Position numbers and translations under genes: made by a program
The notes under the pieces: generated by a model
Database searches by the model: none
Told to the model about the DNA's origin: nothing
What the model saw: the letters and a program-made list of their open reading frames with translations, nothing else
Shown here: positions 48,405 through 62,231 of the stretch, piece after piece
Position numbering within the stretch: position 1 is the stretch's first letter
How the letters are laid out: each line of letters starts with the position of its first letter
From: Actinomycetospora succinea
GTDB taxonomy: Bacteria; Actinomycetota; Actinomycetes; Mycobacteriales; Pseudonocardiaceae
Length of the DNA stretch: 64,000 nt
Assembly: GCF_004363095.1 (NCBI RefSeq)
Contig: NZ_SNYO01000014.1
Span: 1-64,000 of the forward strand
Reading direction: 5' to 3'

Positions 48405-48749
48405 CTAGGTGCGGGCGCGGAAGAGCAGCGCGGAGTGTCCGACGCGGATGGTGTCGCCGTCGGCGAGTTGCCGGGTCTGCACGGGGACGCCGTTGACGAA
48501 GGTGCCGCTGGTCGACCACCGGTCGTACAGGACGGCGTGCCGACCGTCCCACTCGATCACGAAGTGCCGGCGGGACACGAGGACGTCGGTGAGCACGAAG
48601 GCGGCGTCGTCGCCGCGACCGACGACGTTCGCGCCGAGGACCACTCGGTAGGAGCGGTCCGAGCCGTCGTCGACCGTGAGCAGCGGACCGTCGGTCGCGC
48701 CCTCGATCGGACTCGCCACACGACCGGTGTACCGCATCCGTTCGATCAC
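48405..48749 (-). CDS. Small FHA-domain protein coupled to a transporter
   Basis: 114 aa, essentially one forkhead-associated domain: the phosphothreonine-binding core VVGRGDDAAFVLTD, VSRRHFVIEW (Ser-Arg-Arg-His), and the conserved STSGTFVNG followed by LADGDTIRVG. FHA domains bind pThr peptides made by Ser/Thr kinases. GTG 48749 lies in the stop codon of the MHS transporter gene (GTGA), so the two are translationally coupled. No kinase or phosphatase is encoded in the window; control of the transporter by phosphorylation is inferred. Confidence 0.82.
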   Translation of the reverse strand: MIERMRYTGRVASPIEGATDGPLLTVDDGSDRSYRVVLGANVVGRGDDAAFVLTDVLVSRRHFVIEWDGRHAVLYDRWSTSGTFVNGVPVQTRQLADGDTIRVGHSALLFRART

Positions 48750-50104
48750 GACAATCGGGAGGAGGAGTTCACGGGCCCCAGGTCGGCGGTCGTGGCGGCG
48801 AGCGAGCGGTGCGCGGTCTCCGGCAGGACCTTCAGGAGGACCAGGCCGACCGCCAGCGCGATGGCGGCCAGGTAGATCGCGGGCGCGACCGGGCTGCCGG
48901 TGGCGGCGGCGAGGGCCGCCGCGACGAGGGGAGCGGTGCCGGCGATCGGCCCGACGCCCAGGCTGTAGGCGAGCGCGGCGGCGCTCGAGCGGGTCCGGGC
49001 GGGGAACAGCTCGACCAGGACGATCGACGACATGACGTTGAGTCCGGCCTGCGGGACGGCGAACAGGCACATGCCGACCAGCGCGAGCACGGGCGAGCCC
49101 GACCCGACGAGGAACAGGACCGGGACGGCGAGCACCGCGTGGGCGAGCGCGCCGCCGACGTACACGGGCCGGCGTCCGATCCGGTCGGAGAGCCGGCCGG
49201 CGAGCGGGCACAGCACCACGTAGACGAGCAGGGCGAGCGATACCACGCCGAGAGCGGTGGTGCGGGAGCCCTCCACGGACATCGCGGTCGCGAAGTAGGT
49301 GGCGAGGTAGTAGAAGCCGACGCCGGTCACCGAGGCGCAGGCGAAGGCGATCCACAGGGTTCGGCGCTGGCTGCGGAGGGCCTCGCGCAGGGGCGTGGCG
49401 AGGACGTCGTCGTTGCGGCGCAGCTCCCGGTAGACCGGGGTCTCGTCGAGCCGTAGACGCAGGTAGAGCCCGACGAGTCCGAGCGGCGCCGCGAGCAGGA
49501 ACGGCACCCGCCAGCCCCAGGCCTGCATCTGGGCCGGGTCGAGCAGCGCCTCCAGCGCCAGCACCGAGAGCGTGCCCGCGACGATGGCCAGGCCGCCGGA
49601 GGCGGAGACGAGGCTGGCCCGGGCTCCCCGTCGCGCGGCCGGTGCGTACTCGACGAGGAAGGCCGACGCGCTCGTCCACTCGCCGCCGGCCGAGAGGCCC
49701 TGGATGCAGCGCAGGAGGACGAGCAGGACCGGGGCGGCCAGTCCGATCGACGCGTACGAGGGGAGCAGGGCGATGACGGTGGTCGCCCCGCTGATACCGA
49801 GGACGGCGGCCGACAGGGCGACCCGCCGGCCGTACCGGTCGCCGATGGAGCCGAGCAGGGCGCCGCCGAGGGGACGGAAGACGAACGCGGCGCCGAAGAC
49901 CGCGAGGGAGGCCAGCAGGGAGGCCGTGGGGTCGGTGGACGGGAAGAAGACGCGTCCGAGCACGGTCGCGACCGCGCCGTAGATGGCGAAGTCGAACCAC
50001 TCGGTGAAGTTGCCGATGACCGTCGCGGTGACGACGGATCGCGGCAGCGTCGAGGGCCGCGATGGCTGTGCCGAGGACTCGGTCGAGGAGTCGGTCGATG
50101 ACAT
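48746..50104 (-). CDS. MFS transporter, metabolite:H+ symporter (MHS) family
   Basis: 452 aa with 12 predicted helices. Family segments: NFTEWFDFAIYGAVATVLG near the start, GSIGDRYGRRVALSAAVLGI, and LLRCIQGLSAGGEWTSASAFLVEYAP, the MHS signature shared with proline/betaine, citrate and shikimate symporters. It probably imports the organic acid degraded by the surrounding enzymes. The ATG follows GGAGC. Its stop overlaps the FHA gene downstream. Confidence 0.88.
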   Translation of the reverse strand: MSSTDSSTESSAQPSRPSTLPRSVVTATVIGNFTEWFDFAIYGAVATVLGRVFFPSTDPTASLLASLAVFGAAFVFRPLGGALLGSIGDRYGRRVALSAAVLGISGATTVIALLPSYASIGLAAPVLLVLLRCIQGLSAGGEWTSASAFLVEYAPAARRGARASLVSASGGLAIVAGTLSVLALEALLDPAQMQAWGWRVPFLLAAPLGLVGLYLRLRLDETPVYRELRRNDDVLATPLREALRSQRRTLWIAFACASVTGVGFYYLATYFATAMSVEGSRTTALGVVSLALLVYVVLCPLAGRLSDRIGRRPVYVGGALAHAVLAVPVLFLVGSGSPVLALVGMCLFAVPQAGLNVMSSIVLVELFPARTRSSAAALAYSLGVGPIAGTAPLVAAALAAATGSPVAPAIYLAAIALAVGLVLLKVLPETAHRSLAATTADLGPVNSSSRLS

Positions 50105-50621: not shown

Positions 50622-51737
50622 CTACTTGGTGAAGTCGAGGATGCCGCGGATGATCTTGCCGTCGCGGAGGTCCTGGTAGCCGTCGTTGAGCTGGTCGAGC
50701 GTGTAGCGGCTCGTGATGAGCTCGTCGAGCTTGAGCCGGCCGGCGTCGTAGAGGCGCAGCAGTCGGACGATGTCGTACTGGGGGTTCGAGGAACCGAAGA
50801 GCGTGCCCTTGACGGTCTTCTGGTTGTAGACCATCGCCGAGCCGGACAGGTGCACCGTCAGCTTCTCCGGGTTCGCCACCCCCGTGATCACGACGGTGCC
50901 GCCCTTGCCGACCACGTCGAACGCGTCGCTGACGACCTGCTCGTCCATCACGCCGACGACGCACAGCGCCTGGTCGGCGCCCTCGCCCCACGTCAGCTCC
51001 TTCACCGCGGCCGCCGCCTCGGCGGCGTCGGCGAAGGCGTGGGTGGCCCCGAACTCGAGGGCGGTCCGCCGCTTGAAGTCCACGGGGTCGACGGCCACGA
51101 CGTACTTGGCGCCGGCGTGCACGGCGCCCTGGACCGCGTTCATCCCGACGCCGCCGACGCCGTAGACGACGGTGGTGTCACCGGGACGGACGCCACCGGC
51201 GTTGACGGCGGTACCCCAGCCCGTGGGGACGCCGCAGCCCACGAGGACCGCCGAGTCGAGGGGCAGCCACGGGTCGACCTTCACGCACGAGGCGTCCGAG
51301 ACCGTCGCGTACTCGGAGAACGACCCGAGCATGCAGAACGCGCCGACCTCGCCGAGCTCGTCGTGGCGCATGCGGAAGGTGCCGTCGGGCATGCTGCCCT
51401 CGAGGATCGTGGCGCCCATGTTGCACAGGTTCTGGCGGCCGGTGGAGCAGTAGCGGCAGATGCCGCAGGCCGGGGTGAAGCTGCAGACCACGTGGTCGCC
51501 GGGCGCGACCTTGGTGACGGCCGAGCCGACCTGCTCGACGACGCCGGCGGCCTCGTGCCCGCCGACGATCGGGAACCGGACGACGTTGTCGCCGTCGACC
51601 ATGTGCAGGTCGGAGTGGCACAGGCCCGACGCGGTCATCTTCAGCAGCACTTCGTGCGGGCCCGGCTCGTCGAGCTCCAGCTCGAGGATCTCGAACGGCG
51701 TATGCGGTCCGGTCAGGACGGCGGCGCGGGTCTTCAT
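50622..51737 (-). CDS. Zinc-dependent (NDMA-dependent type) alcohol dehydrogenase
   Basis: 371 aa medium-chain dehydrogenase. Catalytic zinc ligands: Cys in GLCHSDLHM (about 38) and GHEAAG (about 60). Structural zinc Cys cluster: CGICRYCSTGRQNLC (about 88-102). Cofactor motif: VYGVGGVGMNAVQG (about 193). The pattern and length fit the actinobacterial NDMA-dependent, tightly NAD-bound alcohol dehydrogenases. ATG 51737 follows CGAGGAG. It heads the leftward operon; a TTTGTATCAAA palindrome lies 26-37 bp before it. Confidence 0.9.
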   Translation of the reverse strand: MKTRAAVLTGPHTPFEILELELDEPGPHEVLLKMTASGLCHSDLHMVDGDNVVRFPIVGGHEAAGVVEQVGSAVTKVAPGDHVVCSFTPACGICRYCSTGRQNLCNMGATILEGSMPDGTFRMRHDELGEVGAFCMLGSFSEYATVSDASCVKVDPWLPLDSAVLVGCGVPTGWGTAVNAGGVRPGDTTVVYGVGGVGMNAVQGAVHAGAKYVVAVDPVDFKRRTALEFGATHAFADAAEAAAAVKELTWGEGADQALCVVGVMDEQVVSDAFDVVGKGGTVVITGVANPEKLTVHLSGSAMVYNQKTVKGTLFGSSNPQYDIVRLLRLYDAGRLKLDELITSRYTLDQLNDGYQDLRDGKIIRGILDFTK

Positions 51738-51762
51738 GGGTTCTCCTCGGTGCGATGCGTAT

Positions 51763-51774
51763 CTTTGATACAAA
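51763..51774. promoter_or_regulatory. TTGTATCAA-type operator, adh side
   Basis: CTTTGATACAAA (read leftward as TTTGTATCAAAG) is an inverted repeat with TTTG/CAAA arms in the leader or promoter of the leftward operon. It is nearly identical to the site at 51882-51893 and resembles the TTGTATACAA-like sites of FCD-type GntR regulators. Confidence 0.55.
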
Positions 51775-51881
51775 CCGACGACTCAAGCGTGGCAAGATCG
51801 GAGTCTCTGACTCGCTTCGCAGCTGCTCAGCGCGGGACAGCGCTGCAGCGGAAGTCCGATCCACCATCGCATGGTGACAAA

Positions 51882-51893
51882 CTTGTATCAAGG
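51882..51893. promoter_or_regulatory. TTGTATCAA-type operator, DUF35/thiolase side
   Basis: CTTGTATCAAGG has perfect CTTG/CAAG arms, 56 bp before the rightward operon's first ATG, next to TTTATT (51895-51900), a -10-like box. Together with the adh-side copy it brackets the divergent promoter region. Confidence 0.55.
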
Positions 51894-51948
51894 ATTTATT
51901 GTCAGTCCTGCTCGCTGGTCCGGCGGGCGTCTGAATCAGGAGGGACCG

Positions 51949-52374
51949 ATGTCCATCCCCGTCGCGGTCGACCGCCCGTTCCGGTCCGACCTGCTCACGC
52001 TCGACCCGCCCCGTCTGCGGGGCTCGCGCTGCCCGCGGTGCGCGACGACCGTCTTCCCGCCGCGCGCGTTCTGCCCCGCGTGCCGCTCGGGCGCCGAGCC
52101 CGAGCACGTCGCCCTGGGCGTGGAGGGCCGCGTCTGCTCGTTCACCGTGGTCCGGCAGGCGCCGGCGGGCATCGAGGTGCCGTACGTCCTGGCCCAGATC
52201 GACCTGCCCGCCGACGGTGTCCGCCTCATGGCGACGGTCGTCGGTGTGGCCCCCGAGGACGTCGTCCTGGACATGCCGGTGACCCTCGAGACCTGCCCCT
52301 TCGGCAGCGACGAGGACGGTGCCGTCCTGGTCGGCTACCGCTTCCGCGCCACCGGGGCGGAGGTGACGGCGTGA
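51949..52374 (+). CDS. DUF35 OB-fold protein with rubredoxin-like zinc ribbon (thiolase partner)
   Basis: 141 aa. The zinc ribbon has four Cys as CPRC (28-31) and CPAC (42-45). The OB-fold follows (VEGRVCSFTVVRQAP, VLAQIDLPADGVRLMATVVG). DUF35 proteins bind thiolases that cleave bulky or alpha-substituted beta-keto-CoA esters, as in BbsA-BbsB and the Ltp/ChsH-type complexes. ATG 51949 follows CAGGAGGG. It overlaps the thiolase start (GTGA), supporting a stoichiometric complex. Confidence 0.9.
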   Translation: MSIPVAVDRPFRSDLLTLDPPRLRGSRCPRCATTVFPPRAFCPACRSGAEPEHVALGVEGRVCSFTVVRQAPAGIEVPYVLAQIDLPADGVRLMATVVGVAPEDVVLDMPVTLETCPFGSDEDGAVLVGYRFRATGAEVTA

Positions 52375-53525
52375 CCCTCGCCCCCGCCCACGTCGCCGGC
52401 GTCGGCATGATCCGTTTCGGGCGCTACCCGGCGGACGTCACCCTCGAGGACATGGCCGTCCGCGCCGCGCGCGCGGCGGTCGACGACGCCGGGACGGACC
52501 TCTCCGTCATCGACGGCCTCTACGTCGGCCACGTGTTCGGCGGGCCGGTCGCCGGGCAGCGCGTCGCCGCCCAGCTGGGTCTCGACGGTCGACCCGTGTC
52601 CAACCACGAGAACTACTGTGCGAGCGGTGCGAGCGCGGTCCGCGAGGCGTGGGTGGCCCTGGCCGCCGGCCTGCACGACGTCGCCCTGGTGATCGGCGTC
52701 GAGAAGATGACCGACCGCGTCTCCGGCGGTGTCCGTCCCGACCCGGGTGACCTCGACGCGGCCGTCGGCTACGTCATGGCCGCCGGGCACGCGATGAGCG
52801 CCCGGCGCTACATGGCCGACCACGGCGCGACCCGCGAGCAGATCGCGGCGGTCGCGGTGAAGAACCACGCCCACTCGGTGCACAACCCGTGGGCGCAGTA
52901 CCAGAAGCCCATCGACCTCCCGACGGTCCTGAACGCCCGCCCGATCGCGGAGCCGCTCGGGCTGCTCGACTGCAGCCCGATCTCCGACGGGGCCGCCGCG
53001 GTGCTGCTCGTCAGCCCCGCCGGCCTGCGCCGACTCGGGATCGACGGGCCGACGCCCCGGGTGCTCGGCGTGGGTCTCGTCAGCGGCTCGGTGCAGACCG
53101 GCCTCGGCGACCCGAACGCCGAGGACGTGTCGCGGCGGGCGGGGGAGCAGGCGTGGGAGCTGTCGGGGGTCGACCCGGCCGACCTCGACCTGGTCGAGAT
53201 GCACGACTGCTTCACCATCGCCGAGATCGTGCGGATGGAGGGGCTGGGCCTGGTCCCGCGCGGCCAGGGGGCGGCGTGGACCGCGGCCGGCGAGACCGCG
53301 CTCGGCGGCCGCCTCCCGGTCAACCCGTCGGGCGGTCTGCTGTCCCGCGGCCACCCGGTGGGCGCGACCGGCGCCGCCCAGGTCTGCGAGCTGACCTGGC
53401 AGCTGCGTGGCAGCGCCGGCGGCCGGCAGGTCGAGGGCGCGCAGGTCGGGCTGGCCTACTGCAAGGGCGGCACCGTCAACGGCACGGACGGCGGCTCGGT
53501 GACCACCGTGGTGATGACGCGATGA
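52371..53525 (+). CDS. Thiolase / SCP2-thiolase-like acyl-CoA acyltransferase
   Basis: 384 aa. The nucleophile Cys lies in ENYCASGASAVREA (about 83), the His-Asp-Cys motif is VEMHDCFTIAEIV (about 280), and the catalytic His is in LLSRGHPVGATGAAQV (about 328). The DUF35 neighbour and missing canonical C-terminal CGG loop place it with lipid-transfer/SCP2-type thiolases, which handle large or branched 3-oxoacyl-CoAs. It is flanked by DUF35 and SDR genes with 4-bp overlaps on both sides, a strict translational relay. Confidence 0.9.
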   Translation: MTLAPAHVAGVGMIRFGRYPADVTLEDMAVRAARAAVDDAGTDLSVIDGLYVGHVFGGPVAGQRVAAQLGLDGRPVSNHENYCASGASAVREAWVALAAGLHDVALVIGVEKMTDRVSGGVRPDPGDLDAAVGYVMAAGHAMSARRYMADHGATREQIAAVAVKNHAHSVHNPWAQYQKPIDLPTVLNARPIAEPLGLLDCSPISDGAAAVLLVSPAGLRRLGIDGPTPRVLGVGLVSGSVQTGLGDPNAEDVSRRAGEQAWELSGVDPADLDLVEMHDCFTIAEIVRMEGLGLVPRGQGAAWTAAGETALGGRLPVNPSGGLLSRGHPVGATGAAQVCELTWQLRGSAGGRQVEGAQVGLAYCKGGTVNGTDGGSVTTVVMTR

Positions 53526-54061
53526 CGGGCGTGCTCGACGACCGCCGCGACCTCGTCGCCGGCGTGCTGGGGGAGGGCTCGCTCGTCCCCGCCGTCCGCG
53601 CGGCCCTCGACAGCATCACCCCGGGGCTAGCCCGCGCCTTCTGCGTCGTCCCGGCCGTCCCGGACCCGGCGCCCCTGACCGACCTGGACGACGGGCGTCT
53701 CGACCGCGAGGTCGGCGACGCCCTGGCCGCCACGCTCGCCCACGTGCAGCAGGCCGCGGCGACGTTCGCCGGCGGTGGGCGACTCGTGGTCGTCCTGCCG
53801 CACGCCCCACTGCTGGGGACCACCCGCGGGGCCGCGGCCTCGGCCGTCACGAACGGCGTGCTCTCGATGGCCCGCACGCTCGCCCTCGAGCTGGCCCGCG
53901 ACCGCGTGACCGTCAACGTCCTCGCCGTCGACGCGGACGCGCCGTCCGTCCGGGCGCTCGCCGCGGAGCTCGAGGCCCTCCTCGGGGACGCGGGCGCCGA
54001 CGTCACCGGGCAGGAGATCTCCCTGACCGCCGGGGCCGGACTGGGGAGGCTGCGACCGTGA
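53522..54061 (+). CDS. SDR-like pseudoenzyme subunit (BbsC-like position)
   Basis: 179 aa. The C-terminal part still reads as SDR (RGAAASAVTNGVLSMARTLA then LELARDRVTVNVLAVDADAP). The N-terminal TGxxxGxG cofactor motif is absent, and the YxxxK site is replaced (SAVTN). It thus should bind neither NAD(P) nor act alone. It is locked between thiolase and an intact SDR by ATGA and GTGA overlaps. The same arrangement of an inactive and an active SDR subunit is known for BbsC/BbsD, which forms a heterotetramer; a scaffolding role with the next gene product is inferred. Confidence 0.8.
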   Translation: MTGVLDDRRDLVAGVLGEGSLVPAVRAALDSITPGLARAFCVVPAVPDPAPLTDLDDGRLDREVGDALAATLAHVQQAAATFAGGGRLVVVLPHAPLLGTTRGAAASAVTNGVLSMARTLALELARDRVTVNVLAVDADAPSVRALAAELEALLGDAGADVTGQEISLTAGAGLGRLRP

Positions 54062-54795
54062 GCAGCACCGGAGCACCCGTCGCGCTCGTGACCGGCGGCG
54101 CGGGCGGCATCGGCCGCGCGATCGCCGCGCGGATGGCCGTCGCGGGCCACACCGTCGTCGTGGGCGACCTGGAGGCAGACGCCGTCCGCGCCACGGCCGA
54201 GGAGACGGCCGGGGCCCACGGCGTCGTCCTCGACGTCGCCGACCCGGGCTCGCGCCGCGCCGCCGTCGCCGCCTGCGAGGACCTCGGCGGGATCGACGTC
54301 CTGGTCAACTGCGCCGGGGTGCTGCGCGACGCGCGGCTGGCGAAGCTCGACCCGGGCCTGTTCCGCCGCCTGCAGGACGTCAACCTCCTCGGCCCGCTCG
54401 CGCTGACGCGGCTCGCCGCGGCGGGGATGGCCGCGCGGGGCAGGGGCGCGGTCGTCAACCTCGCGTCCCGTGCCTGGCTGGGGACGTTCGGGTCCACGGC
54501 GTACTCGACGGCCAAGGGCGGGCTGGTCGGGGCGACCCGCAGCCTCGCGCTCGAGCTCGGTCCCCACGGGATCACGGTCAACGCGCTCGCCCCCGGCTTC
54601 GTCGACACCGCGATGACCGACGGGCTCCCGCCCGAGATCCGCCGGCGGACGCTCGCCGCGATCCCCGTCGGGCGGGCCGGGCGCCCCGAGGACGTCGCCG
54701 ACGCCGTCGCCTACCTGGCCGGCGCCTCCTACGTCACCGGCCAGGTGCTGCCCGTCTGCGGCGGGCGCAGCGTGGCCGACCCCTACGCGGCCTGA
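54058..54795 (+). CDS. SDR-family 3-hydroxyacyl-CoA dehydrogenase-like (BbsD-like position)
   Basis: 245 aa classical SDR. All motifs are intact: LVTGGAGGIGRAIA (about 10-23), VNCAG, the catalytic Ser in NLASRAWLG, and YSTAKGG (about 156-162), then LAPGFVDTAM. It probably oxidises a 3-hydroxyacyl-CoA with NAD, feeding the thiolase. GTG 54058 lies in the pseudo-SDR stop. It is the only catalytically complete SDR of the DUF35-thiolase operon. Confidence 0.9.
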   Translation: MSSTGAPVALVTGGAGGIGRAIAARMAVAGHTVVVGDLEADAVRATAEETAGAHGVVLDVADPGSRRAAVAACEDLGGIDVLVNCAGVLRDARLAKLDPGLFRRLQDVNLLGPLALTRLAAAGMAARGRGAVVNLASRAWLGTFGSTAYSTAKGGLVGATRSLALELGPHGITVNALAPGFVDTAMTDGLPPEIRRRTLAAIPVGRAGRPEDVADAVAYLAGASYVTGQVLPVCGGRSVADPYAA

Positions 54796-54815: not shown

Positions 54816-55895
54816 ATGACCGGCCCCCTCGAGGGCATCCGCGTCGTCGAGTTCGGCGGCCTCGGCCCGGCACCGTTCGCCAGCATGCTGCTCGCCGACG
54901 CCGGCGCGGACGTCGTCCGCATCGACCGCCCCGGCGGACCGGTCGACGGGGGCGCGCTGCTGCGCGGACGCCCGTGGATCGGACTCGACCTCAAGGACGA
55001 CGCCGACCTCGCCACCGCCCGCGAGCTCGTCGACGCGGCCGACGTCCTGCTCGAAGGGTTCCGGCCCGGCGTGATGGAACGTCTGGGACTCGGGCCGGAG
55101 TCGTGCCACACCGGGCTCGTCTACGGCCGGATGACCGGCTGGGGACAGGACGGCCCCCGCGCCCGCCAGCCGGGCCACGACATCAACTACCTGGCCCTCA
55201 CCGGCGCCCTGCGCTCGATCGCGCGCCGTGGCGAGGCGCCGGTTCCACCGCTCAACCTGGTCGGTGACTACGGGGGCGGGGGGATGCTGCTCGCGGTCGG
55301 CGTGCTGGCCGCGCTGCTCGAGCGTGGACGCACCGGGCGGGGGCAGGTCGTCGACGCCGCGATGGTCGACGGGGTCAGCCTGCTGATGACGGGGATCTGG
55401 AGCCGCGCCGCGCAGGGGCGGTGGCCGGGGGAGCCGGGGACCAACGACATCGACACCGGCGCCCCGTTCTACGACGTCTACGCCACGGCCGACGGCGAGT
55501 ACATGGCCGTCGGCAGCATCGAGCCGCAGTTCTGGCGCCGGCTCCTCGACGGCCTGGGGCTCGCCCCGGAGGTCGTGGGCGATCAGTGGGACCGCGCACG
55601 GTGGCCCGAGGTCAAGGTCCTCGTGGCCGCGGCGTTCGCCACCCGCACCCGGGCGGAGTGGACCGAGCGCTTCGACGACGTCGACGCCTGCGTGACGCCC
55701 GTGCTCAGCATGCGCGAGGCCGCCGCCGACCCGCACCTCGCCGCCCGCGCCACCCTCGTCCGGGACGCGGACGGCCACCCCGGACCGGCGCCGGCGCCGC
55801 GGCTGTCGGGGACCCCGTTGCGCTGCGGGCCCGCCGACGACCCGCGGGCCCTGCTCGCGCGCTGGGGCGTCGGGACCGTCGGGGCGGCGTCGTGA
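54816..55895 (+). CDS. Alpha-methylacyl-CoA racemase (CaiB/BaiF superfamily)
   Basis: 359 aa. It starts with the family motif LEGIRVVEFGGLGPAPFASMLLADAGADV. The active-site His-Asp pair of racemases is visible: MTGWGQDGPRARQPGHDINY (His about 122) and LVGDYGGGGML (Asp about 152). This places it with Mcr/AMACR and not with formyl-CoA-type transferases. It inverts the alpha carbon of 2-methylacyl-CoA esters so that beta-oxidation can proceed, hinting at a branched substrate. ATG 54816 follows GGAGG; the stop overlaps an in-frame GTG of the next gene. Confidence 0.88.
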   Translation: MTGPLEGIRVVEFGGLGPAPFASMLLADAGADVVRIDRPGGPVDGGALLRGRPWIGLDLKDDADLATARELVDAADVLLEGFRPGVMERLGLGPESCHTGLVYGRMTGWGQDGPRARQPGHDINYLALTGALRSIARRGEAPVPPLNLVGDYGGGGMLLAVGVLAALLERGRTGRGQVVDAAMVDGVSLLMTGIWSRAAQGRWPGEPGTNDIDTGAPFYDVYATADGEYMAVGSIEPQFWRRLLDGLGLAPEVVGDQWDRARWPEVKVLVAAAFATRTRAEWTERFDDVDACVTPVLSMREAAADPHLAARATLVRDADGHPGPAPAPRLSGTPLRCGPADDPRALLARWGVGTVGAAS

Positions 55896-55960
55896 GCGCG
55901 GCCGGGACCGAGCCCTCGGCGCTGATACGTTATCCGCGACGGCGAGGGCAGGAGGCGGAC

Positions 55961-56635
55961 GTGACGGGACGCCGGGCGGGCCGGCCGACGATCCAGCGAC
56001 GACGCAGCGGCATCGAGGTCGCGGAGTACATCCGCAGCATGATCTTCGACGGCACGCTCTCCGCGGGGCAGCGCGTGCCGCAGGACACCATCGCCGCGGA
56101 CCTCGGCGTCAGCCGCCTGCCGGTCCGCGAGGCACTGATCACCCTCGAGGCCGACGGGCTCGTGGCGTCCGAGCCGCACCGGGGCACCTACGTGGTGCCG
56201 ATCCGGGCCGAGGACATCGAGGACCACTACCGCATCTACGGCATGGCCCAGGGGCTCGCGGCGGCCGGCGCGGCCCGGCGCATCACCGAGCCCGTGCTGG
56301 AGCGTCTCGGGGAGCTGCACCAGCAGATGGCGGGCAGCGACGACCCGGAGCTCGTGCACGACCTCAACTGGGAGTTCCACTCCCTGATCAACCACACCGG
56401 CGCCAGCCGCCGCACCCTCTCGGTGCTGCGTCACCTGTCGCGCAACCTCCCCCGCGAGGTCTACAGCCTGCCCGCGGCAGCGAGCGCGCAGGCCAACGAG
56501 GAGCACGCCGCGATCGTCGCCGCCCTGCGGGCCGGCGACGCCCGCGAGGCCGACCGGACCAACCGCGAGCACATGCAGCACGAGGGCGACCAGGTCGTCG
56601 CGGCGCTCAAGCGCTCCGGGGTCCTCAGCGACTGA
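55961..56635 (+). CDS. GntR-family regulator, FCD type
   Basis: 224 aa. The N-terminal winged helix (EVAEYIRSMIFDGTLSAGQR then TIAADLGVSRLPVREALITL) is GntR. The C-terminal helical FCD domain has the metal/effector His and Asp positions in DLNWEFHSLINHTGAS and EEHAAIVAALRAGD. GTG 55961 follows AGGAGG at 5 nt; an in-frame GTG at 55892 in the racemase stop has none. It is the best candidate to bind the TTGTATCAA-type sites at 51.76 and 51.88 kb, since FCD regulators favour such palindromes, and to respond to a CoA ester or acid of the pathway. Confidence 0.9.
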   Translation: MTGRRAGRPTIQRRRSGIEVAEYIRSMIFDGTLSAGQRVPQDTIAADLGVSRLPVREALITLEADGLVASEPHRGTYVVPIRAEDIEDHYRIYGMAQGLAAAGAARRITEPVLERLGELHQQMAGSDDPELVHDLNWEFHSLINHTGASRRTLSVLRHLSRNLPREVYSLPAAASAQANEEHAAIVAALRAGDAREADRTNREHMQHEGDQVVAALKRSGVLSD

Positions 56636-56681: not shown

Positions 56682-58241
56682 ATGATCACAGCTGACCCGC
56701 GTCCGAGCGAGGACTCCGTGGCCACCGCACACCCCCAGACCCTGGTCGACGCCGTCGACCTCGCCCCGCCCGGCGCGGAGGCCGTCGTCGGCGACGAGGG
56801 CCGGCTGACCTACGGCGCACTGCGCGACCGCAGCACGCGCCTGGCCGCCGATCTCGTCCACCGCGGGCTCCGGCCCGGCGACCGCCTCGCGATCCTGCTG
56901 CCGAACGGGGTGCGCTGGGTGGTGACGGCGCTGGCGGCCCACCGCGCCGGTCTGACCGTCGTCCCGCTCAACACCTGGTACCGCGCCGCGGAGCTCGGAC
57001 ACGTCCTGTCGGAGGCCGACGTGGCGCTCGTGGTCACCGACCGCGCCGTCTTCGGCCGCGACACCGTGGCGGAGCTGGACGCCGCCGGGTTCCCGCGCGA
57101 CGGCGTCCTGCTCTGGGGTGACGGCGACGACCTCCCCCTCGCCGGCGACCCGCCGACCGTCGACCTGCCGGGCCCGGCGCCGACCGACCTCGCGCTGATC
57201 CTCTTCACCAGCGGCAGCACCGCGCGCCCCAAGCCGGTGCCTCTCGAGCACGGCAAGCTGATGGCCAACACCCGCGAGATCGCCCGGCGGCTGAACCTGC
57301 GTCCCGACGACCGGCTCTGGCTGGGCGCACCGATGTTCTTCGGCTACGGCTGCTCCAACGCCCTGCCCATGGCTCTCGGCGCCGGTGCCGCGCTGTGCCT
57401 CGAGTCGCGGATCGACGGCGACCGCTCGCTCGCCGTCATCGCCCGCGAGCGCTGCACCGTCTACTACGGCTTCGGCGCCACCACCCGGCTGCTCCTGGCC
57501 GCGCCGACGTTCGCCGACCACGACATCTCCTCGCTGCGCACCGGCACCACGGGCTTCAGCGCCGAGGAGAAGCGGCTGGCGATCGAGGAGCTCGGCGTCG
57601 ACGGCGTCTGCAGCGTCTACGGGCTCTCCGAGGCCTACGGGCACTCGGCGATGTCCGACGCCGACGACGACCGGGAGGTGCGCCTGCACACCAGCGGCAC
57701 GGTCCTGCCGACCCAGGAGCTGCGGATCTGCGACCCCGACGGCGCCGCCCTGCCGCCGGGCGGGACCGGTGAGATCGAGCTGCGCGGCTGCGTCATCGAC
57801 AGCTACCTGGGGCGCGCCGACCTCGACGGCGGTGTCTTCCGGACCGGCGGCTGGATGCGCACCGGTGACCTCGGCACGCTCGACGAGCGCGGCCGCCTGC
57901 GGGTCGTCGGGCGGCGCAAGGAGATGCTCAAGGTCAAGGGCATCAACATCGCCCCGGTGGAGGTCGAGGACCTGCTGGTCGCCCACCCGGAGGTCGCCGA
58001 GGCGTACGTGGTGGGGCTGCCGGGGGAGGCCGGCGACGAGACCATGGTCGCCGCCGTCGTCGCCCCCCGCGCCGACCCCGACCTCCCCGGCACCCTCGTC
58101 GCCTGGATCCGCGAGCGCGCCGCCAGCTACAAGGTCCCGTCGCGCATCGAGCTGCTCGCCGCCGGGGACGTCCCGCTGACGGCGACCGGCAAGGTCAGCA
58201 AGCAGCTGCTGCGCGACGAGCTCGCGAGGAGGACGCGATGA
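56682..58241 (+). CDS. AMP-forming acyl-CoA ligase
   Basis: 519 aa ANL-superfamily enzyme. The P-loop is LILFTSGSTARPKPV (about 171-185), where the usual GTTG...PKG core is GSTARPKP. The adenylate motif is GLSEAYGHS (about 315), then GWMRTGDLGTLDERG (about 392). The catalytic Lys lies in TATGKVSKQLLRDEL near the C-terminus (about 506). It activates a carboxylic acid for the following beta-oxidation steps. The ATG lies after CGAGGA. The GntR and ligase genes are 46 bp apart; the SMP-30 gene starts in its stop (ATGA). Confidence 0.9.
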   Translation: MITADPRPSEDSVATAHPQTLVDAVDLAPPGAEAVVGDEGRLTYGALRDRSTRLAADLVHRGLRPGDRLAILLPNGVRWVVTALAAHRAGLTVVPLNTWYRAAELGHVLSEADVALVVTDRAVFGRDTVAELDAAGFPRDGVLLWGDGDDLPLAGDPPTVDLPGPAPTDLALILFTSGSTARPKPVPLEHGKLMANTREIARRLNLRPDDRLWLGAPMFFGYGCSNALPMALGAGAALCLESRIDGDRSLAVIARERCTVYYGFGATTRLLLAAPTFADHDISSLRTGTTGFSAEEKRLAIEELGVDGVCSVYGLSEAYGHSAMSDADDDREVRLHTSGTVLPTQELRICDPDGAALPPGGTGEIELRGCVIDSYLGRADLDGGVFRTGGWMRTGDLGTLDERGRLRVVGRRKEMLKVKGINIAPVEVEDLLVAHPEVAEAYVVGLPGEAGDETMVAAVVAPRADPDLPGTLVAWIRERAASYKVPSRIELLAAGDVPLTATGKVSKQLLRDELARRTR

Positions 58242-59074
58242 CCCCGCTACGTTCCCTGCGGCTCCTCGCCGAGGGCATCGGGTTCACCGAGGGGCCCCTG
58301 GTCACGCGCGACGGCCGGCTGCTCGTGGTCGCGCTGTCCCGCGGCCTCGTGGTCGAGATCGACCTCGAGCGCGGCGGCGTCCGAGGCGCCGTCGAGACCG
58401 GCGGCGGGCCCAACGGGCTCGCCGAGACCGACGACGGTGCGGTCTGGGTCGCCCAGAACGCCGGAGCGGTGACGTCCAGCCGCTCGTCCCGGCCCACCCG
58501 GCCGGGGCTGCAACGGGTCGTCGGCGACGCGGTCCTCGACGTGCCGGTGCCCGGCACCCGGGCTCCCAACGACGTCGTCGTCGGGCCCGACGGCCGTCTC
58601 TGGTTCACCGATCCCGGACCGCCCGGCGACACCGACCACGGCCGTCTGCTCGCCCTCGACCCCGCGACGGGCGAGAGCGAGACCCTGCTCGACGAGCAGG
58701 ACTTCCCCAACGGGCTGGCGTTCGACCGGGACACCACGACGCTGTGGCTGGCGCACACGGAGGAGGGGCGGATCAGCAGGCACCGCTGGGAGGACGGACG
58801 GCTCCTGCCCCTCGCCGCGGGACCGCGGCTGCCCGACGGGGGCCCGGACGGGCTCGCGCTCGACGCCCACGGGCTGCTCTACGCGGCGGCGCCGGCCGCC
58901 GACGCGGTCTTCGTCTACGCGCCCACCGGGGAGCTGCACGCACGCCTGGACCTCGGGGAGCGCACCTTCCCCACCAACGTCTGCCTCGCGGGTCCGGGTG
59001 GTGAGCAGCTCGTCGTCACCGCCGCGCGCGGTGGTCGCGTGCTCGTGCTGCCCGCGTCGGGCGTCACACGCTGA
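58238..59074 (+). CDS. SMP-30/gluconolactonase-family protein
   Basis: 278 aa six-bladed beta-propeller hydrolase. Metal ligands are suggested by Glu in GFTEGPLVTRDG (about 17), Asn in TRAPNDVVVGPDGRLWFTDP (about 108), and Asn/Asp in FPNGLAFD and GGPDGLALDAHGLLYAA. Family members hydrolyse lactones or organophosphates; here a lactone intermediate from an oxidised cyclic substrate is plausible. It is the last gene of the rightward operon and overlaps the convergent SDR gene by 11 bp. Confidence 0.87.
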   Translation: MTPLRSLRLLAEGIGFTEGPLVTRDGRLLVVALSRGLVVEIDLERGGVRGAVETGGGPNGLAETDDGAVWVAQNAGAVTSSRSSRPTRPGLQRVVGDAVLDVPVPGTRAPNDVVVGPDGRLWFTDPGPPGDTDHGRLLALDPATGESETLLDEQDFPNGLAFDRDTTTLWLAHTEEGRISRHRWEDGRLLPLAAGPRLPDGGPDGLALDAHGLLYAAAPAADAVFVYAPTGELHARLDLGERTFPTNVCLAGPGGEQLVVTAARGGRVLVLPASGVTR

Positions 59075-59942: not shown

Positions 59943-61463
59943 TCAGCGCAGCAGGGCGGACGCGCGCTCGGCGACGAGGATCGTGGTGGGGTTGGTCGGT
60001 ACGCGGGGGATCGTCGGCAGCACCGAGGCGTCGACGACCGCGAGCCCGTCCACCCCGTGCACCCGGCAGTCGCTGCCGACCACGGCCTGCGGATCGCTCG
60101 ACGGGCCCATCCGGGCGGTCCCGCAGGCGTGGTTGTAGTGCGACGGCGCGCGGCGCACCGCGTCGGCGAGGTCGTCGTCGCCGACGTCCGGGCCGGGCGC
60201 GCGCTCGCCGACGAGCAGCTCGGACAGCGGCGGGGTCGCGGCGAGGCGGCGTGCGATCCGGACCGCCTCCGCGACCCGGGGCGCGTCGTCCGGGTGCGTG
60301 TAGAGACCCAGGTCGATGATCGGTGCGTCGCTCGGGTCCGCCGAGCGCAGCCGCACGCTCCCGCGCGAGCGCGGCTGCACGCAGGCCACGAAGAAGATCA
60401 TGTCCCAGCCGGTCGGGTGCTCGCTGACCGGCGGGACGAACGCCTCCGGCAGCGCCGCGGTCGGGACCGCGGCGGTCGGCAGCACGTGCAGGTCGTAGTC
60501 CGGGTCGGCCGGGTCGTGCCGGACGCTGAGCGCGGTCTGGAACATGGGTGCGGCCGTCGTGTCCGGGGGGCGCGCGGCGTGGATGTTCCACATCACGGGG
60601 TGCTCGGTGAGGTTCTGCCCGACGCCGGGCAGGTCACGGACCAGGTCGACGCCGAGCTCGGCCAGGTGACCCGCCGGTCCGATCCCGGAGCGCAGCAGGA
60701 TCGCCGGGGTGTTGTAGGTCCCGGCCGCCAGGACCACGGTGGCGGCCGCGATCTCCTCGCCGGACCGGAGCCGGACACCGACGGCGCGGTCGCCGTCGAC
60801 GAGGACCCTGTCCACCTCCTCGCCGCCGCGGACCTGCAGATTCGCGCGATCGCGGACGGGGTTGAGGTAGGCCAGCGCCGTGCTCTGGCGGATGCCGTCC
60901 ACGGCGCTGAGCGGAGCGAGGCCGAAGCCGGGCGGGCCCGGCGCGTTGACGTCGTCCACCTCCGCGTAGCCGAGCGCAGCCGCGGCCTTCGCGCTCGCCG
61001 CCGCCGTCGGGGCGAGGTCCTGCCAGCCGTCGCGGGTGATCCGGTAGACGCCCGTGCGGCCGTGGAACTCGTCGGCGCCGTGGGCGAAGCTCTCCATCGC
61101 GCGGTAGTCCGGCAGGACGTCGTCGTAGCCCCAGCCATGGTTCCCGCGGTCGACCCAGGCGGCGTGGTCGGCCGGGCGCGCGCGCATGGCGAAGCAGTAG
61201 TTCGTCGACGACGAGCCGCCGATGACCTTGCCGCGGGGCACGGCGACCGCGTTGCCGAACTCGTCGGGCTCGGCGGTGTAGCCCCAGTCATGGGTCTGCG
61301 GTGCGTAGGCGGCGCCGGCGATGTCCTCGGGGAGCTCCGCCTGCGACAGGTAGTCCGGACCGGCCTCGATCAGCAGCACCGACCGGTCCCCGTCGACGCT
61401 GAGCCGGTTCGCGAGCACGCAGCCGGCCGAGCCACCACCGACGATCACGACGTCGTACGCCAT
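59943..61463 (-). CDS. GMC-family FAD oxidoreductase (choline dehydrogenase-like)
   Basis: 506 aa. The FAD motif VVIVGGGSAGCVLANRLS opens the protein. GMC signature 1 lies in PRGKVIGGSSSTNYCFAMR (about 73-91) and signature 2 in VVLAAGTYNTPAILLRSGIGP (about 244-264). The catalytic His pair is suggested by YNHACGTARMG and PTNPTTILVAERA near the C-terminus. Such enzymes oxidise primary or secondary alcohols, often of alicyclic or polyether compounds. It is divergent from nothing and heads a short leftward unit with the split-motif SDR; a role beside the alcohol dehydrogenase of the main cluster is likely. Confidence 0.9.
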   Translation of the reverse strand: MAYDVVIVGGGSAGCVLANRLSVDGDRSVLLIEAGPDYLSQAELPEDIAGAAYAPQTHDWGYTAEPDEFGNAVAVPRGKVIGGSSSTNYCFAMRARPADHAAWVDRGNHGWGYDDVLPDYRAMESFAHGADEFHGRTGVYRITRDGWQDLAPTAAASAKAAAALGYAEVDDVNAPGPPGFGLAPLSAVDGIRQSTALAYLNPVRDRANLQVRGGEEVDRVLVDGDRAVGVRLRSGEEIAAATVVLAAGTYNTPAILLRSGIGPAGHLAELGVDLVRDLPGVGQNLTEHPVMWNIHAARPPDTTAAPMFQTALSVRHDPADPDYDLHVLPTAAVPTAALPEAFVPPVSEHPTGWDMIFFVACVQPRSRGSVRLRSADPSDAPIIDLGLYTHPDDAPRVAEAVRIARRLAATPPLSELLVGERAPGPDVGDDDLADAVRRAPSHYNHACGTARMGPSSDPQAVVGSDCRVHGVDGLAVVDASVLPTIPRVPTNPTTILVAERASALLR

Positions 61464-61535
61464 CTCCGACCTCCCGCCGCCACGGTCCGGTCATCGCGAC
61501 GTTAGCCCGCGGACGTCGGTGGTCAAGACGTGGCG

Positions 61536-61751
61536 TCAGTCGCTCGTCTCGAACTTGAAGGAGATCTCGAGGCGGACACGGAAGGCGCTCACCCGACCGT
61601 TCTCGATGACGAGGTCCGAACGGACGAGCTCGGCGATGCGGATGTCGCGGACCGTCTTGGCGGCGGTCTCGACGGCGTTGCGGGCAGCGGCCTCCCACGA
61701 CTCGGTGCTGGTGCCGATGACTTCGGTGACGCGGTAGACGGTGTCAGCCAT
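61536..61751 (-). CDS. Dodecin (flavin-storage protein)
   Basis: 71 aa, the exact dodecin size. The pattern MADTVYRVTEVIGTSTESWE, AARNAVETAAKTVRDIRIAE and SAFRVRLEISFKFE matches dodecins, which form hollow 12-mers binding riboflavin, FMN or CoA. The ATG follows AGGAGG. A stand-alone gene; its closeness to many flavoprotein genes may be coincidental. Confidence 0.92.
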   Translation of the reverse strand: MADTVYRVTEVIGTSTESWEAAARNAVETAAKTVRDIRIAELVRSDLVIENGRVSAFRVRLEISFKFETSD

Positions 61752-61855
61752 GTCGAGACCTCCTGAGGGGACGCATCGCGTCGCGGGGTGAACTGTGACC
61801 CAGGCCACAGCGTCCAGCGACGATATCCCCCGCTCGTCGTCGTCGCCAACGTCGC

Positions 61856-62074
61856 TCAGGGAACCGGCTCTCCGTGGGCGACGGGGCACGTCGTCTCGAT
61901 CAGCGGACTCGTCGAGGCGCCGCAGCGGTAGGCCGCGTTGGCCAGGACCGAGCACCCGCACCCGGCGGCGCGCGCCGCCGGGCTCCCCGGCAGCAGCATC
62001 TCCGCGCCGGCCGGTGCTGGCGGGCCCGGTCCGACGTCGGTGCCGGGTCGTGGGGTGGGTTCTGCGGGGTCCAT
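61856..62074 (-). CDS. Small Cys-rich hypothetical protein
   Basis: Possible 72-aa protein. A Pro/Gly-rich N-terminus precedes AARAAGCGCSVLANAAYRCG and a final ETTCPVAHGEPVP, giving Cys-x-Cys and two further Cys. A similar C-x-C-P/S-V-L-x-N pattern is seen in other short actinobacterial proteins, which supports it being real. The ribosome binding site is weak. Function unknown; metal binding is possible. Confidence 0.45.
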   Translation of the reverse strand: MDPAEPTPRPGTDVGPGPPAPAGAEMLLPGSPAARAAGCGCSVLANAAYRCGASTSPLIETTCPVAHGEPVP

Positions 62075-62231
62075 CGCGTACCGAGTCTGCGAGGCCGTCG
62101 GGGGCAGGCGGTGCTGCGATGAGGGAAGTAATTGCCGCATCCGAACGGCGCGGTGACGACGGGCCCGCGATCTGCGGCATCTCACCGGAGCTGTGGACGG
62201 GACGGGACGGCCGACCGCGACGGGCCGGGAC

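Follow-up and report, generated by a model that had tools for sequence, protein, structure and literature searches.

Four adjoining genes at positions 51949..54795 of a 64,000-nucleotide stretch of DNA from the soil actinobacterium Actinomycetospora succinea (contig NZ_SNYO01000014.1; hereafter the window) encode a DUF35 zinc-ribbon protein, a thiolase, a 179-amino-acid protein related to short-chain dehydrogenases/reductases (SDRs) that lacks their cofactor and active-site motifs, and an intact SDR. We consider it quite probable that they specify a machine resembling BbsABCD, in which a DUF35-thiolase would cooperate with a heteromeric 3-hydroxyacyl-CoA dehydrogenase composed of the intact SDR and a pseudo-SDR reduced to a scaffold. 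With marginally greater confidence, the 179-amino-acid protein is viewed as an obligate partner of this SDR.

Four genes and a putative pared-down SDR subunit

The sequence-only reading had described the four genes as joined by 4-bp overlaps, and these can be read directly from the sequence at all three junctions; Pfam and PDB searches likewise upheld the identities that it had assigned to the products. The first gene (51949..52374, + strand) encodes a DUF35 protein with a C-x2-C-x10-C-x2-C zinc ribbon and an oligonucleotide-binding (OB) fold, a thiolase subunit of the BbsA/ChsH2 type that matches the Pfam profiles OB_ChsH2_C and zf-ChsH2 (PF01796, PF12172) and, in the PDB, ChsH2 (6ok1_B), 6esq_E and BbsA (7pxp_A). 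Beside this C4 zinc-ribbon OB protein stands an SCP2/BbsB-type thiolase (52371..53525, + strand, GTG start; Pfam Thiolase_N and Thiolase_C_1) with a nucleophilic Cys and the motifs NYC, HDCF, GHPVGA and YCKGG; it matches SCP2-thiolase (6hsj; E = 2.7e-70) and BbsB (7pxp_C; E = 1e-68, 36.8% identity). The fourth gene (54058..54795, + strand, GTG start) encodes an intact SDR (TGGAGGIG, NCAG, ASRAWLG, YSTAK and TGQVLPVCGG) that scores well over the adh_short cut-off and finds its best PDB match in the active subunit BbsD (7pcs_B; phmmer, E = 9.8e-53, 44.8% identity).

The third gene (53522..54061, + strand) specifies the pseudo-SDR, which has neither TGxxxGxG nor YxxxK, carries Pro in place of the catalytic Ser and reaches the SDR profiles of Pfam only below cut-off (22.6 vs 27 bits, residues 50-135). 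In a phmmer search of the PDB, BbsC (7pcs_A; E = 2.4e-5) ranks first. The structure predicted for the single chain has an SDR fold without the cofactor and lid segments; alphaF and beta7 are conserved, as is, strongly, a C-terminal tail (ending GRLRP) that is unstructured in this prediction. In SDRs, alphaE, alphaF, alphaG and beta7 are the elements of the dimer interfaces used to build tetramers. The pseudo-subunit would retain these interface elements and lacks the parts for cofactor binding, catalysis and the lid; the likely docking place of its invariant tail is the active site of the partner or a spot next to it.

Thiolase searches covered 297 genomes of the family (an even sample), named genome contigs and plasmids, with plasmid records below 60% identity (n = 20) left out. 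Among the matches listed, window-type thiolases (at least 67% identity) occur in at least 33 places, 27 of them distinct after removal of copies; 22 of these 27 are accompanied by both SDR genes and five by neither. At the 22 places, a pseudo-SDR of 165-206 amino acids lies between thiolase and SDR with a 4-bp overlap at both of its junctions, so that the proposed search for the same four-gene order returned a dead and a live SDR behind bbsAB-like genes in every distinct module bearing a pseudo-SDR. YxxxK or TGxxxGxG was found in none of the 22 pseudo-SDRs and Ser is replaced by Pro in all of them; cofactor and catalytic residues are intact in all 24 active SDRs. Despite a G+C content of 78%, the reading frame of the 179-amino-acid protein is more than a product of chance, since 22 distinct sequences (that of the window included) with G+C contents of 58-81% occupy the same place and the ratio of nonsynonymous to synonymous substitution rates (dN/dS) is 0.17-0.53 in eight pairs. 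The corresponding values are 0.05-0.14 for the thiolase, 0.08-0.22 for the SDR and 0.13-0.39 for the DUF35 protein; the pseudo-SDR is thus the loosest of the four genes in seven of the eight pairs, yet constrained.

Relationship to BbsABCD and competing explanations

According to excerpts of PMC10818641, the bbsABCD genes follow the order Gmet_1528-1531; a work cited there (ref. 26) gives BbsCD as a heterotetramer with dead subunits. The window set has all four of these components, likewise arranged, and its two SDR-type proteins have BbsC and BbsD as their top matches of known structure, in agreement with the earlier comparison. The designation as a BbsABCD-like module stands for components, order and best PDB matches; it needs to be qualified in that the dead subunit is not simply BbsC (165-206 vs 250 amino acids, with cofactor and lid segments missing) and in that the active-site motifs of the thiolase (HDCF, YCKGG) differ from those of BbsB (HDAF, SHVTGG). 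As in BbsCD, the dead and live SDR genes are adjacent and follow a DUF35/thiolase pair, the live subunits have SRAWLG and TGQVL.VCGG in common, and the dead subunit is without catalytic residues. In contrast to BbsCD, which ends its dead subunit with FSMSI, the tail here reads GRLRP, the partner SDRs are 38-45% identical to BbsD (seven of 22 compared), and the complex is putative. BbsAB (7pxp, benzoylsuccinyl-CoA thiolase) likewise couples a DUF35 subunit to an SCP2-like thiolase with a nucleophilic Cys and a GHP motif, at 36-38% identity to the six window-type thiolases compared. Chains of the heteromeric ketoacyl reductase (17beta-HSD8/CBR4, 4cql) are also among the PDB matches of the 179-amino-acid protein and the SDR; this enzyme is an SDR assembly of two different subunits, which are full-length and eukaryotic and are not known to have a thiolase neighbour.

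By bit score, the pseudo-SDRs are nearer to BbsC than to their own SDR in 18 of 22 cases and nearer to BbsC than to BbsD in 17 (lower in four, without a match in one). An SDR tree built from 11 of the 22 pseudo-SDRs, three pseudo-SDRs from the type-2 modules described below, 13 of the 24 active SDRs, BbsC and BbsD, together with 28 background SDRs from loci retrieved in the search of the window's genus, separated these background sequences from the rest at 88/88 (not starred), and a single clade of active SDRs plus BbsD was not rejected (p = 0.19). A number of observations weigh against the proposed explanation. In the same tree, the pseudo-SDRs and BbsC share one side of a branch supported at only 67/63, with long branches; all three type-2 pseudo-SDRs score higher with BbsD than with BbsC; and the Ser-Tyr loop of the window-type pseudo-SDRs shown is one residue longer than in BbsC, BbsD, the active SDRs and the type-2 pseudo-SDRs shown, which makes common descent with BbsC unsure. 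The pseudo-SDR profile matched the 28 background SDRs (99.0%) above BbsC as a single sequence (97.5%) and its own partners (96.7%), and a PDB fold ranking tied BbsC with ordinary SDRs such as FabG. Moreover, five of the 27 listed thiolases manage without the pair, no clear acyl-CoA dehydrogenase or hydratase gene was found in the window operon, and neither of the two Azospirillum clusters yielded a racemase. Since bit scores stand against branch support, type-2 scores and loop length, we regard kinship of the pseudo-SDRs with BbsC as likely, short of proof.

Loop length and the weak, long-branched tree would also fit an origin of the pseudo-SDR independent of BbsC, with a convergent resemblance and perhaps still a similar function; the shared gene order, the related partners and scores that mostly favour BbsC over the neighbouring SDR and over BbsD render this unlikely rather than far-fetched. 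Much less probable is a genuine benzylsuccinate or alkylsuccinate pathway, to which the shared components and order and two type-2 relatives with CoA-transferase and hydratase genes in front, one of them also with a MatC carrier gene farther upstream, might point. A pyruvate formate-lyase-like glycyl-radical enzyme (PF02901) was detected in none of the nine module-bearing genomes searched (G151 not included), among them the window's own 97% complete assembly, and in three of 14 control genomes, which bears out the earlier statement that benzylsuccinate synthase is missing here. The window furthermore has a racemase and an AMP-forming ligase, with no BbsEF-like transferase among the genes annotated, and the NCBIfam equivalog cut-offs are missed by far (59.5 of 250 for BbsA, 257.9 of 750 for BbsB).

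With respect to the 179-amino-acid gene itself, a decaying duplicate of the adjoining SDR gene might be suspected from its 40% identity to this SDR over 85 residues and from a dN 2.3-5.7 times that of the thiolase and 1.1-3.1 times that of the SDR (eight pairs). The sequence-only reading had named a decaying duplicate absent in relatives as the outcome that would speak against it; the conservation of 22 distinct open frames with the same C-terminus under purifying selection, the occurrence of the pseudo-SDR never without the SDR in the loci examined, and the greater proximity to BbsC refute this explanation, and we see hardly any room left for it. A function of its own, as an assembly factor, a chaperone or a bridge (e.g., from thiolase to SDR), in place of that of a stoichiometric SDR subunit, would suit the overlaps with both neighbours and a tail that is unstructured alone and strongly conserved; we nevertheless think such a role rather improbable. 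The elements kept are those that SDRs use for tetramers, and the five listed thiolases without the 179-amino-acid protein are also without the SDR. The dead subunits of the BbsCD heterotetramer, as given in ref. 26 of PMC10818641, provide a precedent for the preferred reading of the pseudo-SDR as a subunit.

Distribution of the module and type-2 relatives

Hosts of the module include Actinomycetospora, Amycolatopsis, Arthrobacter sp. Y81, Rhodococcus opacus ATCC 51881 and two Azospirillum, and it also resides on large plasmids in R. opacus 1CP and R. koreensis; the pseudo-SDR gene of R. opacus 1CP is labelled 'hypothetical protein' in its record. The pseudo-SDR and SDR of R. opacus 1CP have the accessions WP_065493663 and WP_065493664, and the cluster there carries the locus tags R1CP_RS36960-36995. 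None of the module's locus-tag prefixes turned up when the main text of a transcriptome paper on R. opacus 1CP (PMC13101518) was searched by word. Since four of 18 genomes of the window's genus (its own included) carry the module and, in the Azospirillum order, two of 82 genomes have a window-level thiolase, its distribution is patchy and the module is probably mobile. The five pair-less thiolases are spread over three distinct branches in the thiolase tree, which would correspond to three joint losses if the pair is ancestral. Genome-wide, two genomes with a pair-less thiolase (G082, G708) have no pseudo-SDR, and a third (G292) has one solely at its other copy. Among 69 more distant thiolase loci (at most 43% identity, among the matches listed), an SDR-like gene lies within 4 kb in six and a tandem SDR pair in none. 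A profile built from the pseudo-SDR alignment matched 390 of 394 genomes of the class, mostly through ordinary SDRs, and is unusable as a count; its top non-self match was G536.

Three loci (L166, L167 and L071) hold a paralogous cluster for an aldehyde dehydrogenase, an alcohol dehydrogenase, a CaiB-type protein, a DUF35 protein and a thiolase (71-72% identical) without both SDR genes, and another dehydrogenase probably serves them. The window's own genome has a second DUF35/thiolase pair (G000:C9:103864-105182; thiolase 46-48% identical), with no SDR match across the 3.2 kb covered.

In four genomes (G182, G061, G151 and G536), a pseudo-SDR of 191-209 amino acids that ends in SSLSV lies behind a thiolase of 40-43% identity, and a BbsD-like SDR comes next in all three loci with long enough flanks (that of G151 is cut). 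The order in G182 (L171) is CaiB, enoyl-CoA hydratase, DUF35, thiolase, pseudo-SDR and SDR, and 1.1 kb upstream of these genes a MatC dicarboxylate carrier is encoded; G061 (L172) agrees, with no MatC seen, and the G536 locus (L175) has an acyl-CoA dehydrogenase, two hydratases, PrpF and MmgE/PrpD. These type-2 operons are close to a bbs operon minus benzylsuccinate synthase, and by analogy the three actinobacterial examples could possibly serve a bbs-like beta-oxidation of a 2-substituted dicarboxylate. In the thiolase tree, BbsB sits on a long branch within a group, supported at 98/94, that also holds the type-2 thiolases and three relatives lacking the pair; it shares HDAF with the type-2 enzymes, as opposed to HDCF and YCKGG in the window type. 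A type-2 thiolase search of the 394 class genomes gave four matches, three of which (50% identity) have no pseudo-SDR or SDR gene directly behind them.

Genomic neighbourhood and possible pathway

The gene that follows the module (54816..55895, + strand) encodes, as had been stated, an alpha-methylacyl-CoA racemase of the CaiB/BaiF superfamily: its match to mycobacterial MCR (1x74; E = 1.8e-112) far exceeds that to the best CoA-transferase (E = 9.5e-33), which places it nearer to MCR/AMACR, and it has the GHDINY motif and a downstream GD. His and Asp have catalytic roles in such racemases. Further downstream on the same strand are genes for a GntR/FCD regulator (55930..56635, start approximate; Pfam domains in the 3' part of the open reading frame 55421-56635), an AMP-forming acyl-CoA ligase (56682..58241; Pfam and NCBIfam) and an SMP-30/gluconolactonase family protein, a candidate lactonase (58238..59074; Pfam). 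Divergently oriented (- strand) are an N,N-dimethyl-4-nitrosoaniline (NDMA)-dependent alcohol dehydrogenase gene (50622..51773, start approximate; TIGR03989, 539 bits, above its cut-off) and one for a major facilitator superfamily (MFS) transporter (48746..50104), relatives of which lie beside other modules. On the 3' side of the cluster, a GMC oxidoreductase and a dodecin gene (59943-62180, - strand) lie in frames without relatives in the 11 related loci compared.

Neighbours were counted in 16 loci with long flanks by similarity to query sets (E <= 1e-10), a measure by which weak matches in large families may be unrelated genes. Ligase and SMP-30 family genes were present in 16, MFS transporters in 15, racemase and alcohol dehydrogenase in 14 each, GntR/FCD in 13, acyl-CoA dehydrogenase in nine (the window's match is only 27% identical and perhaps another gene), aldehyde dehydrogenase in eight and MaoC in three; DUF35 was counted in 15, a number that omits L074 with its weaker match. 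Ten of the 16 clusters also contain a thiolase-fold paralogue (at least 58% identity; e.g., L064:14201-15352) with YDNF replacing the thiolase motif (three read). Excerpts of PMC12329534 give the aldolase motif as Y-D-[HC]-[FY], and the paralogue is, from its sequence, probably an aldolase of the Ltp2/Sal type, so that thiolytic and retro-aldol cleavage may both occur in these pathways. The window thiolase shares the DUF35/thiolase-fold architecture of the steroid aldolases Ltp2-ChsH2 and Sal-Shy; unlike them, it has the thiolase Cys and HDCF, not YDHF.

Between the divergent alcohol dehydrogenase and DUF35 genes (51761..51895), a motif search revealed paired inverted operator-like sites (ATCTTTGATACAA / TTGTATCAAGGAT), with two exact matches to TTGATACAA in the window against 0.00 expected. 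The 6.47-Mb assembly has a single place with two TTGATACAA sites 90-118 bases apart. Of 15 loci examined, eight have core sites flanking the equivalent gap, four more have single or displaced sites and three have none. The dehydrogenase gene and the module are therefore probably co-regulated, and the pair may be where the GntR/FCD regulator binds.

Racemase, lactonase-like protein, ligase and dehydrogenases suggest an alpha-methyl, possibly lactone-derived acid as the substrate; we give even odds to the alpha-methyl group and consider an origin from a lactone less likely than not. The monoterpene-lactone acid 6-hydroxy-5-isopropenyl-2-methylhexanoate (excerpts of PMC7794910) fits the lactonase, alcohol dehydrogenase and racemase; it is kept as an example because no Baeyer-Villiger oxygenase is among the annotated neighbours. 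Following uptake by the transporter, the SMP-30 lactonase and/or the NDMA-dependent alcohol dehydrogenase would yield an acid, the ligase its CoA ester, and the racemase would set the alpha-methyl centre. An acyl-CoA dehydrogenase and a hydratase, encoded in some clusters and otherwise elsewhere, would lead to an alpha-substituted 3-hydroxyacyl-CoA, a substrate class suggested by the racemase (14 of 16 clusters) and by analogy. The pseudo-SDR/SDR pair would oxidise this compound, and the zinc-finger thiolase that the DUF35 protein and the thiolase would form would then cleave the product; for a methyl substituent, the fragments would be propionyl-CoA and a shortened acyl-CoA.

In the literature searched, the module was not reported outside toluene-type degraders, and as far as could be seen, a dead/live SDR pair beside a DUF35-thiolase has been described for one pathway, anaerobic toluene degradation. 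New here, by sequence, is the minimal form of the dead subunit within a BbsABCD-like module. As a tentative proposal, such pseudo-SDRs could form a hitherto undescribed family that keeps only the oligomer-forming part of the fold, acts as obligate subunits of heteromeric 3-hydroxyacyl-CoA dehydrogenases, with a tail that completes the active site of the partner or guides the 3-oxoacyl-CoA to the DUF35-thiolase, and has spread, plasmids included, among aerobic actinobacteria and proteobacteria for alpha-methyl, lactone-derived acids. The gene labelled 'hypothetical protein' in R. opacus 1CP can be flagged as that of a probable catabolic subunit, and the module offers a compact system in which to ask what a catalytically dead subunit does. 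Because two further flavours, with a dead partner shorter by about a fifth to a third, are found in bacteria without benzylsuccinate synthase, the paired design appears older or wider than the toluene pathway; it may answer the general problem of crowded 3-hydroxyacyl-CoAs, as a tool of wider use in the breakdown of branched acids.

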